This document shows positions 5,744-12,500 of a stretch of 39,173 nucleotides of DNA, one piece after another. The stretch is taken from the NCBI GenBank assembly GCA_021803215.1, contig JAJZLV010000039.1:1-39173 (forward strand). The letters run 5' to 3'. Position 1 is the first letter of the stretch. Each line of letters opens with the position of its first letter. The notes under the pieces are model-generated. The model saw only the letters and a program-made list of their open reading frames with translations, was not told where the DNA came from and did not search any database. This DNA comes from Actinomycetes bacterium. GTDB taxonomy: Bacteria; Actinomycetota; Acidimicrobiia; Acidimicrobiales; Bog-793. Both the position numbers and the translations under genes were made by a program.

Positions 5744-6805
5744 TCAGCTCGACCGGCCGCCCGGCCAGCTCTGGTGGGTCGGCCAGTTGCGGTTGTAGTT
5801 GATCGGTTCTGGCGTCTGCTCGGGCCCCGCTCGAGCAGAGACGAAGCTCTTCTCGTGACTCTCGGGCATCTCGCGGGGAAGCCGGTCGAGCACGGGAATC
5901 AGGTATCCGACGCCGGCGAGGAGCGGACCGACGACCATGAGGCCCATGCCGAGCAGGCGGAGCGAGTGGGAGGAGGTGAGCAGACCGCCGACACCCGCCA
6001 GACCCACGCCTGCGAGACCGACCCAGGCGACCGTCCGTGCCGAGCGCCCGGCTCTCCGGCTGAGCGACAAGAGAACGAGCGCCCCGACCCCGAGCGGGAG
6101 TCCCACGATGGCGTGGGCGAGATAGAGGTCCGTCCCGCTCGGCGGCAGCCAGCCGCTCGGCCGACCGACCTTCACCACGAAAAGCGTGCTGACCCCGAGG
6201 AGGAACTCGATCCCGAGGAGGAGGCCGACGTAGGGCGCGAGCCGCCCGAAGATCGCCGCGACCCGGTCGTCGCCGGAGGCCGGCAGGTCGAGGTCCGCCA
6301 CTTGTGCATCCGGTGGCGTGTCGGCCAGCTCTGGAGTCGCCGGCGCGCGGGCCGGAGCCAGCCGGACCATGGAGTTGTAGACGATGAGCGCCATGGCGAG
6401 GTGCATAGCCATGAGGAACCCGACTTCGTTGATGGGCTCGTGCAGGAGGATCAAAAGCCACATGTCGGGGAGGAAGAGAACGAGCGTCGCAACGACCGCC
6501 AGCCGGAGAAAGAGCCAGCGCGGTGCCGAGCTGACACGGATGACGGCCGGCCAGGCGGCGCAGGCGACGATGGCCCCGAGGAGGGTCAAAGAGACGTAGT
6601 CGGCCACCTTGTAGTGGGAGAATCCCCGCGTCGAGGGAAACAGGCTCGTGGCCAGGTGTACGAGGAGAACGTTCACGACCAGGGAGCCGGCGACCGCGAC
6701 GGCGCTTGCCGTCGCGAGCGCGACAGTCTTCGGCTGGCGGAGACGAGGAGCCGCCTCGATCCTTGCCAGGCGTAGCAGCTTGTCGGCGAGCTTCTCCGCG
6801 GCCAT
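5744..6805 (-). CDS. Polytopic membrane protein of unknown function (about 8 TM)
   Basis: A 353-residue protein with about eight hydrophobic segments in two groups of four (roughly 27-56, 69-89, 97-120, 128-147 and 190-211, 226-248, 259-278, 283-307). They are separated by a polar Ala/Pro/Asp-rich loop (150-182). The N-terminal half, with HYKVADYVSLTLLG, FLPDMWLL and MHLAMALIVYN, resembles small four-helix actinobacterial proteins of the DUF6069 type, but I am not certain of the family. The second half looks like a separate four-helix unit, so this could be a fusion. It converges on the SDR gene with 20 nt between stops. The ATG at 6805 is preceded by a near-consensus -10 box and no ribosome site. 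No function assigned. Confidence 0.8.
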   Translation of the reverse strand: MAAEKLADKLLRLARIEAAPRLRQPKTVALATASAVAVAGSLVVNVLLVHLATSLFPSTRGFSHYKVADYVSLTLLGAIVACAAWPAVIRVSSAPRWLFLRLAVVATLVLFLPDMWLLILLHEPINEVGFLMAMHLAMALIVYNSMVRLAPARAPATPELADTPPDAQVADLDLPASGDDRVAAIFGRLAPYVGLLLGIEFLLGVSTLFVVKVGRPSGWLPPSGTDLYLAHAIVGLPLGVGALVLLSLSRRAGRSARTVAWVGLAGVGLAGVGGLLTSSHSLRLLGMGLMVVGPLLAGVGYLIPVLDRLPREMPESHEKSFVSARAGPEQTPEPINYNRNWPTHQSWPGGRSS

Positions 6806-7083: not shown

Positions 7084-7518
7084 CTACCGGGCGTTTATGT
7101 AGTCCACCAGCTCCTTGCGCTCTCTCTCGAGCTCCTCGATCCGGACCCGGACCACGTCGCCGATGCTGACGATCCCGACGAGGTCGTCCGAGTCGACCAC
7201 CGGCACATGGCGAAAGCGGCCGTTTGTCATGGTCGCCATCAGCTGGTCGGTGTCGTCTTGCGGCCCGCAGGTCGACACCGCCGAGGACATGACCGAGGAG
7301 ACCGGCCGCGCCAGGGCCTCGCCGACCGACTCAACCGAAAGAGCCCGGACGATGTCGCGCTCGGAGACGATGCCGCTGATCTTCCGCCCGTCGTCGGATA
7401 CGACGAGAGCCCCGATGCCCCGGGCATTCAGGAGCCGGACGGCCTCGGCCAGCGTGGCGGTAGAGCCGATGGTGAAGACCACGGCGCCCTTGTCCTCGAG
7501 CAGCTTGGCTATGCGCAT
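7084..7518 (-). CDS. Twin CBS-domain protein
   Basis: A 144-residue protein made almost entirely of two CBS domains (about 5-60 and 70-130). Repeated features include ARGIGALVVSDDG..ISGIVSERDIVRAL in the first and GRFRHVPVVDSDD..GIVSIGDVV in the second. Stand-alone CBS pairs bind adenine nucleotides such as AMP, ATP or SAM and act as energy sensors or regulatory subunits. A charged helix, rich in Glu and Arg, closes the protein. The ATG at 7518 is chosen over an in-frame GTG six codons earlier because GGGAGG sits 6-7 nt upstream of it. It lies downstream of, and on the same strand as, the DUF5317 gene (48 nt gap), so the two may be cotranscribed. The target is unknown. Confidence 0.88.
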   Translation of the reverse strand: MRIAKLLEDKGAVVFTIGSTATLAEAVRLLNARGIGALVVSDDGRKISGIVSERDIVRALSVESVGEALARPVSSVMSSAVSTCGPQDDTDQLMATMTNGRFRHVPVVDSDDLVGIVSIGDVVRVRIEELERERKELVDYINAR

Positions 7519-7566
7519 CGCCGCCTCCCGTTTCACAAGCTCACGAGAGCTTACGTCACAGTAAGG

Positions 7567-8478
7567 TCATCGAAAAGAAGGAGATCGAAGCTGCGCGACC
7601 TGCCTGACCTTGCAGGGCCGGTCCGCGAGGTTCCAAGAGATGGCCGCGGTCGTCGACTCCAAGCTGGCGAGACTGGGCGCGGCCAGTCCTCTCCGGACGG
7701 CACGGATCGGCCGCCTCTCAGCTGGCTCCGGCGCCTGATCTGCGGCTCCGCAAAGACTGCCGACGTGAAGACGGCTCCGCCGTCGCCGACTCCGCCAGCC
7801 AGCTTGCCGGCGCGAGCGCTGCACCGCCGGCTGCCCGGCCGGGTGAGCCGGGCGGCTCGAGGAGAGGCTCGGATCCTCATCAGCCGGGCGCCTCCTTTCC
7901 CGCGGCATGTTCGAGCTGGGGCCGGGCTCTAGCCGACCTCTCATGCCGGCCGCCACCAGGAGAAGGAGCCCGAGCGCCATGACGAAGTCGCCCGGGCTTG
8001 CCACGGTGCGCAGCGGCCGGAGAGGGATCCAGTCAGAGAGGAGGCTTAGTCCGCTGCCTCCTCCGGCGAGCAGATGCTTTCCGAGGTGGCCGCGGGAGAC
8101 CCGTAGGCCGGTGAGACCCGCCGCGCGAAGGGCGATGGGAGATACGGGCATCGCTCCGTTCGCGGCCATGACCGCCAAGTTGGCCGCCCAGCCCAGCAGG
8201 AGCAAAAAGAGCGCTCCCTTCTCGGTCGGCCGGGCTGCTCGGAGGCTCCGCCACAGGAAGAGGCCAACCAGCAGCTCTGCCCCCACGACGACGGTGGCCC
8301 GGCCTGCGGCAGGCCACCGGGCGTGAAGGCTGAGCTCACCGAGGACAGCCTCGGCCCCGAGGGCCATGACGAGAGTGCTGGCGCGGGCGAGGGTGAGCTC
8401 GCCGAGACGCAGCAGGCGTCCGCCGCTCAGGTACCCGAGCGCGACGCCGCCCGCAAGAGCGATGATGAGGAGAGACAT
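7567..8478 (-). CDS. DUF5317 membrane protein with an unusual C-terminal tail
   Basis: A 303-residue protein. Residues 1-180 hold about five hydrophobic segments and the ANGAMPVSPIALRAAG motif, followed by SLLSDWIPL..PLRTVASPGDFVMALGL, which I associate with the DUF5317 family, actinobacterial/firmicute membrane proteins of unknown role. Such proteins normally end soon after the last helix. Here the frame continues for about 120 residues rich in Arg, Pro, Ser and Ala without recognisable structure. The tail could be a real disordered extension or readthrough of a frame that lost its stop. A 37-residue hydrophobic peptide is encoded 45 nt upstream on the same strand, and the twin-CBS gene follows. 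Confidence 0.75.
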   Translation of the reverse strand: MSLLIIALAGGVALGYLSGGRLLRLGELTLARASTLVMALGAEAVLGELSLHARWPAAGRATVVVGAELLVGLFLWRSLRAARPTEKGALFLLLLGWAANLAVMAANGAMPVSPIALRAAGLTGLRVSRGHLGKHLLAGGGSGLSLLSDWIPLRPLRTVASPGDFVMALGLLLLVAAGMRGRLEPGPSSNMPRERRRPADEDPSLSSSRPAHPAGQPAVQRSRRQAGWRSRRRRSRLHVGSLCGAADQAPEPAERRPIRAVRRGLAAPSLASLESTTAAISWNLADRPCKVRQVAQLRSPSFR

Positions 8479-8523: not shown

Positions 8524-8637
8524 CTACAGGTGGACGTGGATGCCGAAGCCCTGCCAGACCGGCGCCGCTCCGGCCAGCCAGCAGGCAGCCAGGGTGCCGA
8601 AGCTCGCTGCCACCTTGATCATCTGGCGTGAACGCAT
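8524..8637 (-). CDS. Small hydrophobic peptide (37 aa)
   Basis: A short gene with a strong ribosome site: GGAGG lies 8 nt upstream of the ATG at 8637. The product begins MRSRQMIKVAAS, carries one hydrophobic segment from about residue 7 to 30 (with LAACWLAGAAPVW), and ends in GFGIHVHL. The basic N-terminus and single helix suggest a membrane-inserted or exported peptide; the cleavage-like AGAAP could also make it a signal peptide with a very short product. It is the first gene of the minus-strand unit with DUF5317 and is preceded by promoter-like elements. I know of no named family. Confidence rests on the ribosome site and codon phase rather than homology. Confidence 0.6.
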   Translation of the reverse strand: MRSRQMIKVAASFGTLAACWLAGAAPVWQGFGIHVHL

Positions 8638-8695
8638 GCTGTTCCCTCCATTTCTGAGCGATCTGCCCCAGGAAACAGAGCGCGTTCGAGCCCGG

Positions 8696-8724
8696 CTGAT
8701 ACAAATTCCTCCCCTACTTGCCAA
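8696..8724 (-). promoter_or_regulatory. Candidate promoter for the small peptide / DUF5317 unit
   Basis: On the minus strand TTGGCA (8724-8719) and TATCAG (8701-8696) are separated by 17 nt, a standard housekeeping spacing. The -35 is one base from TTGACA. It overlaps the -35 of the divergent sigma-factor promoter because TTGCCAA is read in both directions. Confidence 0.5.
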
Positions 8725-8745
8725 AAGAGAGCCCGGTCGTACACT
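8718..8745 (+). promoter_or_regulatory. Candidate promoter of the sigma/CHAT operon, leaderless
   Basis: TTGCCA (8718-8723) and TACACT (8740-8745) are 16 nt apart. The GTG start codon at 8753 follows the -10 box by 7 nt, so the mRNA probably begins at the start codon. The -35 is shared, back to back, with the divergent promoter. This is the only good promoter I see ahead of a 22-gene run. Confidence 0.55.
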
Positions 8746-8752
8746 TTGCGCG

Positions 8753-9394
8753 GTGCCGGAGGGGGAAGTGGCCGCCCTGGTAAGGGCCGCCAGTCGGGGG
8801 AGCGACGAGGCCTGGAACCTGCTCTTCGCCCGCTTCGGCGACCTCGTCTGGGGCGTGGCACGGGCTCACGGCCTGTCGCACTGCGACGCCTCCGACGTTG
8901 CCCAGACGGTCTGGTTGCGCCTCTACCAGCGCCTGGGCCGGCTCACCCAGCCCGAGCGGGTAGGCGCCTGGCTCTCGACCACCACTCGCCGCGAGTGTCT
9001 GCGCCTGCTTCGTGAGCAGCAAAGACAGGTGCCTTCGGCTCTCGTCGAACAGCTGGCCCGTGAGATGGCTCCCGCGGTCGACGAGATCGAGCTCGCCGAT
9101 GACCCCCGGGCCGACTCCCGGCGCTTTTGGGCGGCCTACGCCCGGCTGCCGGCCCACTGCCAGCTGATCCTCAGGATGCTCGTCGCCGAGCCGGGCTCGA
9201 GCTACCAAGCCGTGAGCGAGGCGATGGACATGCCGCCGGGCTCGGTCGGCCCGACTCGGGCCCGCTGTCTCGAGCGGTTGCGGGCGAACCTGTTGTACCC
9301 GGACTCCTCCGACGGCGAGAATGGGGGCGAGCAGGCCACGAGGCAAAGAGCCCTTGGTTCGGGCCGACGCCGGGCGGCCGAGGAGGTGTCGTGA
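8753..9394 (+). CDS. ECF-like sigma-70 family factor (CHAT-associated)
   Basis: A 213-residue sigma factor. Region 2 is at about residues 5-85, with LLFARFGDLVWGVARAHGLSHCDASDVAQTVWLRL (region 2.1-2.3) and WLSTTTRRECLRLLR (2.4). Region 4 is at about 125-190, with LPAHCQLILRMLVAEPGSSYQAVSEAMDMPPGSVGPTRARCLERLR, a helix-turn-helix for the -35 element. Region 3 is missing, as in ECF factors. The frame is open far upstream, but GTG 8753 is where region 2 begins and fits the leaderless promoter. A roughly 20-residue polar tail follows region 4. The stop overlaps the next gene's GTG by 4 nt. There is no classical anti-sigma factor beside it; the next gene is the obvious candidate regulator. Confidence 0.88.
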   Translation: MPEGEVAALVRAASRGSDEAWNLLFARFGDLVWGVARAHGLSHCDASDVAQTVWLRLYQRLGRLTQPERVGAWLSTTTRRECLRLLREQQRQVPSALVEQLAREMAPAVDEIELADDPRADSRRFWAAYARLPAHCQLILRMLVAEPGSSYQAVSEAMDMPPGSVGPTRARCLERLRANLLYPDSSDGENGGEQATRQRALGSGRRRAAEEVS

Positions 9395-9921
9395 CGGGCG
9401 AGGCGTCTGAGCAGGACGTAGCTCCGATTATCCCCATCTCGGCTCTCACCAGAGAGGCGGCTTTTCGCCGCTTCAGCGAGATCGTCCGCCGGAGCGATCC
9501 GGTCCCGGCCGAGCTGCGCGAGGCCATCTCGAAGATCCCCGCCAGGCACCGGGCGGGCTCCACCTCCGGGGGGCGGGAGGAACGGGAGGCCGAGCTCGTA
9601 TATGACTCGGACGAGGACGGCGAGGCTCTCGTCGGGGTGCGCTCCATCTCGGGCGGCACGCGGCGGCTCAGTTTCGAGTCCGATGGCATAGCCATCGAGG
9701 TCGAGATCACCTCGGGCGGTAAGCGCTCGCTCGTCTGCCAGGTGGTCCCGGCCCAGCCGGCCGTCCTCGAGGTGCGCGCGGCGGCCGGGGTCAGCCGGCG
9801 TCTCGAGGACGTCAAGGGGACCTTCCACCTGACGGGCTTGCGGAGCGGTCCGCTCAGCCTGAGGTGCCGCCTGGAGGCGTCCGGAGCACCCGTCTTGTCC
9901 ACGACCTGGGTCCGCATCTGA
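9391..9921 (+). CDS. Small beta-rich protein between sigma factor and CHAT protease; unknown function
   Basis: A 176-residue protein starting at GTG 9391, with GAGGAGG just upstream and overlapping the sigma stop. Residues 1-55 are polar and mostly helical. From about 65 on the sequence alternates hydrophobic and polar residues as in a beta-sandwich, with RRLSFESDGIAIEVEI, then LVCQVVPAQPAVLEVRA and FHLTGLRSGPLSLRCR, ending in a TTWVRI-like strand. The second half resembles carboxypeptidase-regulatory-like or transthyretin-like folds, and I recall similar proteins beside CHAT genes in other actinobacteria, without a named function. No membrane segment or zinc motif is present, so it is not a standard anti-sigma factor. 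Being an adaptor, an inhibitor of the sigma factor or a CHAT substrate are all inferences from position. Confidence 0.75.
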   Translation: MTGEASEQDVAPIIPISALTREAAFRRFSEIVRRSDPVPAELREAISKIPARHRAGSTSGGREEREAELVYDSDEDGEALVGVRSISGGTRRLSFESDGIAIEVEITSGGKRSLVCQVVPAQPAVLEVRAAAGVSRRLEDVKGTFHLTGLRSGPLSLRCRLEASGAPVLSTTWVRI

Positions 9922-12500
9922 CCAGCCGGCCTGCCGAGGCCTCGCCCGACTCGGCTGAGCTGGCGGTCCAGCTGGCCCACTCCGATCCGCAACGCGCCCT
10001 CGGCCTGTCGCGAGCGATCGCCAAGGACAGGCGGCAGGGAGCCGAGCTCCGGGCGACGGCCTTGTGGGCGGCGGCGCTCGCCTCGATCCAGCTTGGCGCG
10101 CTGCACGAGGCTCGGACCTTTCTCGACGAAGGCCGGGCGCTCGTCGAGGCGGCCGGCCTGCACGAGCTGCGGGGCGAGATGGCAGCCACGGCCGCCAACC
10201 TTTGGTTCCACGCCCAACGGCTCGACCGGGCGTTCCTCGAGATACAAGAGGGTCTGGCGGCCGCCGAGGCGGCATCGGCTCCGCGGGCTCTGGCGGCGCT
10301 CCACGGGCAGGCCGCCTCCTTCTACTTTCGCCTCGGCCGCTACGAAGCGGGTTGGGCCGAGAGCGAGCGGGCTCTCGGGGAGCTTGCAGAGCTGCCTGCC
10401 GCCGGGGCTGCCACGTTGCGAGCGCGGATCCTCTCAAACCGCGGGCTCGCCCTTTGCTACCGGAGCATCCACGAGGAGGCCCGCCGGGACCTCGCCGAGG
10501 CGCTGGAGCTCAATCGCCAGCAGGGGGCCGCCGTGCTCGCCGCCCAGCTCCTTCACAACCTCGGCTTCGCCGCCACCCAGCGAGGGGACCTGGCCGAGGC
10601 TCTGGCCCGTTTCGAGGAAGCTCACCTCGCCTATCTAGAGCTGGGGCTGCCTGTCCACCGGCTCCTCGCCGATCGCGCCGAGCTCCTCATAAAGGCGAGG
10701 CTGGTGCCCGAGGCCCGCCAGGCGGCTACCGAGGCGGCCGAGGCATTCGAGCAGGCCGGCCTTGCCTTCGAGGCTACCGAGGCCCTTCTCACCTTCGCCG
10801 AGGCCTGTCTCGCAGACGAGGATCTCGATGCGGCCGTCATGGCGAGCGAGCAGGCCGGAGCTGCCTTCTCCCGGCAGGGACGGCCCCATCTGGCAGCCCT
10901 GGCTGTCGAGGTCTCGCGGCGGGCCTTTCGTCTCTCCTTGCCCCCCGAGGCGCTGGAGAGCCGCCTCGTCTCGGCTGCCAGCTCAGCTACCGCCCTCGAG
11001 GCCGCCGGATGGCCTTCGGCCGGTCTGCGGGCTCGAGTCGAGGCAGCCCGCCTCGCTCTTCGTCTCGGCCGCCTGGAGGAGGTGGCGTCGCTCACCGCGC
11101 AACAGGAGCGAACCGAGCCCGCCCCGGCGGAGGAGGCGCTCTGCTTGCACCGGGCGGCCCTGCGTCTCGCGGCCGGCGGAGACCGCGACGGAGCTCTTTC
11201 CAAGCTCGCTGCCGGGATGGAAGCCGCCTTTCACCAGGCCAGCGAGCTCAAGGCGCTGAGCGGCCAGCTGGGCCATGGGGCGGAGCTGGCCGAGCTGGCG
11301 GAGACCGCCTTGGGGCTGCTGCTCGAAGCGGGCGGAGAGCCGGGGGTCGTACTCGAGTGGGTCGAGTGGGCTCGGGCACTCGCCAATGCCGCTCCCGGCC
11401 GAGCCCCTCTTCTCCGCCCGGTGGGACAGCTCCTCTCGGAGCTCGGCGAGGCGACTCTCCTCGAGCTCGTCGCCCACCGAGGGCGCCTGCTGGCGCTGGC
11501 GGCCGGCGGCGCCGGGCTTCTCCTCGAAGAGATCGGTCCTCTGGCTGCGATCGAGAAAGCCTCCGCCTCGATCCATCTCGCACTCGGAGAGCTCGTCCGA
11601 CCGCCGGGCCGGCGGAGCCGGGCCGGTATGGCCGAGCTCTTCCTCCGCTCCCGGGCCGAGCTCGAGAGCCGGCTGTCCAAGCCGCTCCGTGCCCTCCTCG
11701 ATGCGGTCGAGACCGGGGGGGAGGAGCTCTTCTTGGTGCCGGCCGGCTCGTTGCACGACCTCGCCTGGGGTCTGCTGCCGGTCTTCGAGCAGAGGTCCGT
11801 CGTGCTCGGGCACGGCTGTGAGCCAGCGCGGCCCACGGGCGCTTTTGGGGAGGAGATCCTGCTCGTCGCCGGGCCCGGCCTCGAGAAGGCCGCCGACGAG
11901 GTGGCTCGCCTGGCGGCCCTCTACGGCGATGAGCCGGTCCGGCTCTTGCAGGCAGGCAGCGCCACGAGGGAGAACGTGCTCGCCGCTCTCGGCCGGGCGA
12001 AGGTGATCCATCTGGCGGTCCACGGGCGCTTCCGGGCCGACAACCCCTTCCTCTCGAGCTTCGAGCTGTCAGATGGACCGCTCTCCCTTCTGGAGATGTC
12101 CTCCACGAGGCCCGTCCCGAGACCTCTCGTGGTGGTCCTGTCGGCCTGCGACGCAGGAAGAGTGGTCTCTCATGCGTCTGAAGAGCTGGCGGGCCCGGTG
12201 CCGGGCCTGCTCGGCTTCGAGGGAGGACATGTGATCGCACCAGTGGCCCCGGTAGCCGACCGGGCGATGAGTGAGCTCTCCGGCCTGCTGCACGGCAATC
12301 TCGCCGGGGGGAGACCACCTGGTCTCGCTCTGGCCGAGAGCCGCCGGAGAAGCGCCGGCGGGCTCGAGCTGACAGAGCCTGAGCTGGTGAGCGGGTCTTC
12401 GCAGGTGGTCACCGCTCTCTCGGCCGGCGCTCTGGTCTGTCACGGCCCGTCACCCCGCTCTGGAAGTCGGGGCCAGATGTTGGGAGAATCACCTTCGTGA
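9864..12500 (+). CDS. TPR-CHAT caspase-like protease
   Basis: An 878-residue protein. Residues from about 30 to 560 are Ala/Leu/Glu-rich helical repeats of the TPR type (for example LAVQLAHSDPQRALGLSRA and RAFLEIQEGLAAAEAASAPRALA). The C-terminal 260 residues form a CHAT domain: LVPAGSLHDLAWGLLP, the catalytic His in VIHLAVHGRF (H720) and the catalytic Cys in VVVLSACDAG (C762). CHAT proteases are caspase relatives that cut specific partners when a sensor is triggered; the TPR part would sense or bind the partner. Both catalytic residues are intact. No signal peptide is seen, so it is probably cytosolic. The GTG at 9864 overlaps the previous gene by 58 nt; no better start exists before the repeats. 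The stop overlaps the moxR GTG. Confidence 0.9.
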   Translation: MPPGGVRSTRLVHDLGPHLTSRPAEASPDSAELAVQLAHSDPQRALGLSRAIAKDRRQGAELRATALWAAALASIQLGALHEARTFLDEGRALVEAAGLHELRGEMAATAANLWFHAQRLDRAFLEIQEGLAAAEAASAPRALAALHGQAASFYFRLGRYEAGWAESERALGELAELPAAGAATLRARILSNRGLALCYRSIHEEARRDLAEALELNRQQGAAVLAAQLLHNLGFAATQRGDLAEALARFEEAHLAYLELGLPVHRLLADRAELLIKARLVPEARQAATEAAEAFEQAGLAFEATEALLTFAEACLADEDLDAAVMASEQAGAAFSRQGRPHLAALAVEVSRRAFRLSLPPEALESRLVSAASSATALEAAGWPSAGLRARVEAARLALRLGRLEEVASLTAQQERTEPAPAEEALCLHRAALRLAAGGDRDGALSKLAAGMEAAFHQASELKALSGQLGHGAELAELAETALGLLLEAGGEPGVVLEWVEWARALANAAPGRAPLLRPVGQLLSELGEATLLELVAHRGRLLALAAGGAGLLLEEIGPLAAIEKASASIHLALGELVRPPGRRSRAGMAELFLRSRAELESRLSKPLRALLDAVETGGEELFLVPAGSLHDLAWGLLPVFEQRSVVLGHGCEPARPTGAFGEEILLVAGPGLEKAADEVARLAALYGDEPVRLLQAGSATRENVLAALGRAKVIHLAVHGRFRADNPFLSSFELSDGPLSLLEMSSTRPVPRPLVVVLSACDAGRVVSHASEELAGPVPGLLGFEGGHVIAPVAPVADRAMSELSGLLHGNLAGGRPPGLALAESRRRSAGGLELTEPELVSGSSQVVTALSAGALVCHGPSPRSGSRGQMLGESPS

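Follow-up and report, generated by a model that had tools for sequence, protein, structure and literature searches.

A conserved 37-residue micro-protein gene paired with DUF5317 and linked to an ECF sigma/TPR-CHAT cassette in Acidimicrobiales

The locus and its conserved short reading frame

The window, i.e. the whole stretch of 39,173 nt analysed here (contig JAJZLV010000039.1 of an actinomycete from the Acidimicrobiales), contains a short open reading frame on the minus strand, situated between the gene of a DUF5317 membrane protein and a divergent cassette of three genes (Table 1). Its signal-peptide-like product, MRSRQMIKVAASFGTLAACWLAGAAPVWQGFGIHVHL (37 aa), has a basic N-terminus, one hydrophobic stretch, a core of the form W-x-A-x-x-A-P-x-[WY]-x-G-F and a tail bearing His. 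An overlooked gene for a peptide with a single hydrophobic helix, upstream of DUF5317 and divergent from the CHAT cassette, had been proposed from the sequence, and all of this was borne out: the frame lies exactly where it was placed, DUF5317 starts 45 nt downstream and the cassette runs on the plus strand. The Shine-Dalgarno motif named in the same proposal is present as well, with a spacing of 7 nt instead of 8. Domains found by Pfam around the frame are DUF5317, a CBS protein, an ECF sigma factor, a TPR-CHAT protein and a MoxR ATPase, while the peptide itself has no match among Pfam or NCBIfam families.

Table 1. Features of the micro-protein locus in the window
Feature	Position	Strand	Remarks
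Two-CBS-domain protein gene	7084..7536	-	3' of DUF5317; same order in G001, G006, G007 and G010
DUF5317 membrane protein gene	7567..8478	-	PF17248, E 1.1e-16; domain covers the first ~180 codons
Micro-protein gene, 37 aa	8524..8637	-	ATG at 8637, stop 8524-8526
Shine-Dalgarno GGAGG	8645..8649	-	7 nt 5' of micro-protein ATG; read from sequence
ECF-type promoter element	8677..8703	-	TGTATCA (8697-8703), N15, GCTCT (8677-8681); conserved before homologues
Sigma-70-like promoter of the sigma gene	8718..8745	+	TTGCCA-16-TACACT; only match of the sigma-70 scan
ECF sigma factor gene	8753..9394	+	Candidate regulator of the peptide promoter; GTG start by comparison with L076
Middle protein gene, 176 aa	9391..9921	+	Between sigma and TPR-CHAT genes
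TPR-CHAT protease gene	9864..12500	+	Start uncertain; Pfam

In the divergent cassette, the TACACT box ends 7 nt 5' of the GTG start of the sigma gene that matches relatives, and judged from this arrangement the gene is probably leaderless. The TPR-CHAT gene keeps the motifs HLAVHG and LSACDAG, which we take to be the catalytic His and Cys motifs of a CHAT protease. For the middle protein, the best PDB sequence match (E 0.64) is unrelated, and the AlphaFold model from a three-sequence alignment has a pLDDT of 45. A PADLOC defence-system search of five window proteins gave no match.

The DUF5317 frame of the window comprises 303 aa; relatives stop near 200 aa. The extra, Arg-rich part (7567-7940, minus strand) has the appearance of an extension or of a frame error. 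Farther away on the same strand, a 353-aa membrane protein (5744-6805) with a sub-threshold DUF6069 match is kept in G001.

For the identification of homologues, DUF5317 was sought in 60 relatives and the DNA upstream of it was read. This first sweep yielded seven peptides of 36-39 aa, all from one family and located 42-140 nt before DUF5317. A profile of these seven gave strong matches in 7 of the 35 genomes of the family, all adjoining DUF5317, so that the conservation in close relatives expected by the original prediction was found. Profile searches recovered further homologues, confirmed by context, in other families of the order. The homologue from G018, absent from the first sweep, has a GTG start, lies on the opposite strand and scored E 0.03, later 4.5e-12, in the profile searches. 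The window peptide scores E 3.5e-16 against the family profile, which includes the window sequence itself. Most matches from the order and the class with E values of 0.001-1 lie inside long frames and were dropped by context, as were two weak profile matches in transporter-like long frames (L052 and L053).

The resulting set of 14 members (30-39 aa) was compared. In 90 of 91 pairs pN is lower than pS (means 0.42 and 0.63), so conservation of the reading frame exceeds chance. Differences at codon position 3 number 1779 versus 1263 and 1236 at the other positions, and a purine-rich, Shine-Dalgarno-like stretch lies 5' of all 14 homologues. By these comparisons the 37-residue frame is confirmed as a genuine, conserved protein-coding gene. 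When the members are aligned without gaps on the Trp, this residue and one Ala are invariant in 14/14, and a second Ala and the Pro occur in 13/14. The N-termini are variable and the common core is W-x-A-x-x-A-P-x-[WY]. In all 14 homologues the A-P is preceded by small residues at -3 and -1, in line with the (-3,-1) rule; variants of this site are a Val at -3 in G018 and A-V instead of A-P in G006. The tail after A-P or A-V is 4 to 11 residues long. The sequence beyond the predicted cleavage site reads APVWQGFGIHVHL in the window and APIYQGF, APIYGGF, APIYTGF and others in relatives from the order. The suggestion that the product might be a signalling peptide is compatible with this signal-peptidase-like site.

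Promoter element and gene neighbourhood

Own promoter-like elements had also been claimed for the short gene. A sigma-70 scan found none on its strand, but an ECF-type element is present. Comparison of the 190 nt 5' of the 14 homologue start codons revealed a shared TGTATCA-N15-GCTCT motif, after which GTT usually comes. The element is exact (12/12) in nine of the 14 peptide loci, including the window, and reaches 11/12 in three more. Poor scores are restricted to L139 (10/12) and L008 (9/12, the weakest), the latter from the cassette-less genome G021. No exact match and seven matches at 11/12 were found in 110 non-peptide loci (1.32 Mb); the corresponding Fisher value for exact elements (1.4e-10) is only a guide, since the related genomes share ancestry. 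In the window there is one TGTATCA-N15-GCTCT match, compared with none in 100 shuffles of it.

The element stays 5' of the peptide gene when the gene moves (L144, L150 and L154). In G218 and G018 element and peptide precede the sigma operon, whereas in G058 they follow the CHAT gene. Second copies occur in G218 (L150), facing DUF5317, and in G058 (L154), before a 409-aa frame leading into DUF5317 and sigma. A search with the promoter alone in 395 genomes produced 17 matches versus seven for the reversed pattern. Eight of these are at sigma cassettes, namely six known peptide loci, G008 and G061, and nine are at no cassette. Beside the sigma-CHAT cassette of G008, a fifteenth, diverged peptide, MARLRKLHRKIQVAMMTGLGVAFLSIPHPIWQHDAFLRIHG, was found by this search alone. 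It comprises 41 aa and lies on the minus strand just below position 4361 of L332 with an exact promoter; its W-A core is lost and PIWQ is kept. In G061, which has a CHAT cassette without peptide, the element is directly 5' of the sigma gene (L333, near 7431, minus strand), and this position suggests autoregulation. The window's own genome holds one other match to the loose pattern (L299, C131:45952, minus strand), at chance level. In view of the promoter-only matches at the six known loci, G008 and G061, and of the nine without a cassette, we rate recognition of the element by the sigma factor of the divergent cassette itself as likely. The sigma factor probably drives the micro-protein gene, a connection that was missed by the original prediction.

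DUF5317 stands beside the peptide in all 14 loci. An ECF sigma gene adjoins 13 of them, and a TPR-CHAT gene is in view in 12 of these; in the thirteenth sigma-linked locus (G012) the contig edge falls inside the sigma gene. The order of the genes around the peptide varies between loci and the own promoter is kept. Conversely, sigma cassettes contain the peptide in 13/13 cases with DUF5317 but in only 1/13 (G008) without DUF5317 in view, with a Fisher value of 2.7e-6 that, given the shared ancestry of the genomes, again serves as a guide only. The 13 cassettes without DUF5317 in view comprise 11 found via the middle protein, G008, whose 6.5-kb contig carries no DUF5317, and G061. A diverged peptide was sought in these 11 and none was found. 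L149 (G193) was left out of the count because it has no sigma or CHAT match. In the order sample we count 118 DUF5317 places, of which 105 were examined with their surroundings; the 11 weakest were left out, and the places in G000 and G001 were considered on their own. Seven of the 105 have a cassette and all seven have the peptide, versus a strong peptide match in 0 of the 98 without a cassette. The micro-protein thus goes together with both DUF5317 and the sigma/CHAT cassette. That it is a membrane partner of DUF5317, as proposed earlier, gains backing from this co-occurrence and from one genome (G021) with peptide and DUF5317, in which no sigma, middle protein or CHAT match is present on the 9.0-kb contig. 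These observations suggest that micro-protein and DUF5317 form an undescribed bacterial peptide pair. With its sequence core, its promoter and its neighbours, the window gene shows the features that would define a proposed family of DUF5317-paired, ECF-driven micro-proteins.

Similar short frames were found elsewhere. In another family of the class, profile matches with E values of 7e-5 to 0.01 (subthreshold in a further profile search) are ORFs of ~29 aa with the sequence V/MKSRVIKLALTLGTLATALLAGAASFRVG and relatives of it. Where the downstream sequence was read, in four loci, the genes that they head encode membrane proteins with HD-type sequence, assigned by reading of the sequence and, in L208, by Pfam. 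DUF5317 is within the stretch examined in four of the eight loci with such ORFs; in the other four the contig is short or ends nearby. Furthermore, 118 genomes of the order contain 13 MASE9-like genes, eight of them with an upstream, signal-peptide-like ORF of 28-34 aa ending, for example, in ..GAPRKW, ..GADRQW or ..AAPLKWW. DUF5317 is near seven of these eight versus none of the five without such an ORF. Micro-ORFs near DUF5317 head GGDEF-EAL and HD genes, and by shared plan, partner or context and weak profile scores they may be linked to the window peptide. In L187, L190, L191, L194 and L204, DUF5317 continues in frame into an MFS-transporter-like part, which is confirmed by Pfam in L190 only.

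Proposed mechanism and alternatives

The observed basis for an interpretation is the coding conservation, the own promoter and the linkage to DUF5317 and the sigma/CHAT cassette. As the best explanation, to which we assign a probability of roughly 0.4, we propose an ECF-driven micro-protein that is exported, cut, and then handled or sensed by DUF5317. The micro-protein and DUF5317 would be co-transcribed from the dedicated ECF-type promoter, most likely recognised by the cassette's own sigma factor. On the model of Csx29/Csx30/CASP-sigma, the sigma factor would be held back by the middle protein, a candidate sigma inhibitor and CHAT substrate, until the TPR-CHAT protease releases it on a cue. 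The micro-protein would enter the membrane via its basic N-terminus and hydrophobic stretch and would most likely be cut at the conserved AxA/AxG-A-P site. This would leave a short peptide outside, APVWQGFGIHVHL in the window, to be handled or sensed by the predicted outer loop of DUF5317, acting as a putative receptor or processor.

Some features of DUF5317 are consistent with such a role. Most of the residues conserved in 106 DUF5317 sequences fall between predicted helices four and five (from a low-confidence helix model; the AlphaFold model based on a three-sequence alignment has a pLDDT of 53). According to the positive-inside rule, the loop between these helices is predicted to face outside. 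A conserved loop in this predicted location would suit a ligand or substrate in the form of a peptide that is secreted or faces outward. From the conserved D149 and S-x-G-D164, the idea arises that DUF5317 might be a GxGD-like aspartyl protease.

Almost as likely as a secreted signal is an uncut micro-protein that remains in the membrane, where it would serve DUF5317 as a single-helix subunit or regulator, with its core packed against the DUF5317 helices. Small bacterial membrane proteins act in this way with larger partners. The proposed cleavage site lies within the conserved core, which counts against cleavage and for a retained helix, and the hydrophobic stretch reaches close to the C-terminus. 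Moreover, conservation of a Trp within a signal peptide is unusual, and a retained helix would fit equally well. The pairing with DUF5317 in 13/13 DUF5317-holding sigma cassettes and in the cassette-less G021 also agrees with a subunit. On the other hand, an AxA/AxG-A-P type site is kept in 14/14 members despite tails varying from 4 to 11 residues, and G008 retains its diverged peptide with no DUF5317 in view. The latter case, a cassette and a peptide without DUF5317 on the contig, speaks against the exported and processed peptide as well, as do the weak promoters in L139 and L008 and the 9/17 promoter-only matches that are cassette-less.

The product is small and hydrophobic with a basic N-terminus and comes from a dedicated promoter, as would be expected for a small toxin acting on membranes, produced once stress or phage triggers the CHAT/sigma module, with DUF5317 as protective partner. 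CHAT proteases do act in defence systems, Csx29 among them (PMC10028731). We nevertheless consider a toxin unlikely, as the five window proteins lack a PADLOC match, the conservation concerns a sequence motif beyond mere hydrophobicity, and similar micro-ORFs precede c-di-GMP enzyme genes. Far less probable still is a leader peptide that serves, through its translation, solely to adjust the expression of DUF5317. The position shortly 5' of DUF5317 in the window and the own Shine-Dalgarno motif would permit it, but in G218 and G018 the peptide gene comes first in the sigma operon and diverges from DUF5317, and in G058 it follows CHAT, under a promoter of its own and with its amino acids conserved. 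Open frames are abundant in GC-rich DNA; a chance frame is nonetheless refuted by the pN/pS relation, the Shine-Dalgarno motif, the own promoter and the conserved core, and its probability is negligible.

If the exported and processed peptide is extended to the related loci, a new peptide-signalling architecture would emerge, in which TPR-CHAT and ECF sigma switch on a micro-protein whose outside C-terminal peptide is read by DUF5317. The pair, its peptide diverged, would also feed membrane-bound c-di-GMP enzymes (MASE9-GGDEF-EAL and HD), which would make DUF5317 a membrane module for the handling of peptides with a wide distribution. We regard this broad view as speculative and, taken as a whole, rather unlikely.

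Comparison with known systems

Among the open-licence papers searched, DUF5317 is absent, which is no proof of novelty, and nothing relevant was found for MASE9. For an ECF sigma factor with CHAT, only the Csx29 work was found in this literature (PMC10028731). According to that paper, the TPR-CHAT protease Csx29 of type III-E CRISPR cleaves Csx30, an inhibitor of an ECF sigma factor, and sigma motifs are located in the locus. The window resembles this CASP system by a TPR-CHAT gene beside an ECF sigma gene with a small third protein and by sigma motifs within its own locus. It differs in its presumed output, which is a micro-protein with DUF5317, and in a middle protein without a solved relative by sequence. 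Neither a Cas7-11 effector nor a CRISPR array is among the annotated genes of the window.

As in Phr/RRNPP pro-peptides and other signal-peptide-borne pheromones, a tiny gene for a predicted exported pro-peptide adjoins the gene of its presumed partner. The window peptide does not match PhrC_PhrF (PF11131, gathering score 25), and the best homologue is at chance level with 12.3 bits (E 0.13). In contrast to these systems, the partner is a membrane protein, and no cytosolic TPR receptor of that type was identified. The locus resembles AgrD/AgrB in that a small hydrophobic peptide adjoins a multi-pass membrane protein. AgrB (PF04647) is absent from the window's own genome (95.5% complete), and AgrD models do not match the window peptide. 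A charged C-terminal tail is a criterion for AgrD, and the window peptide, unlike AgrD, has none.

PF17248 and PF20972 each match only Thermus composti and Thermotoga maritima among 14 control genomes. The signalling peptide locus of T. maritima is presumably TM0504. Peptide signalling is reported for T. maritima (PMC6022435), and both domains thus occur in an organism with this kind of signalling. Through the present comparison DUF5317 gains its first concrete partner, and a testable promoter can be named for a CHAT-protease-linked sigma factor outside CRISPR. In addition, a class of gene products of 25-41 residues, hidden by length filters, becomes visible beside regulators in Actinomycetota. 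Release of the short C-terminal peptide, should it occur, would provide a peptide signal that is connected with a caspase-like protease and, at related loci, also with c-di-GMP.
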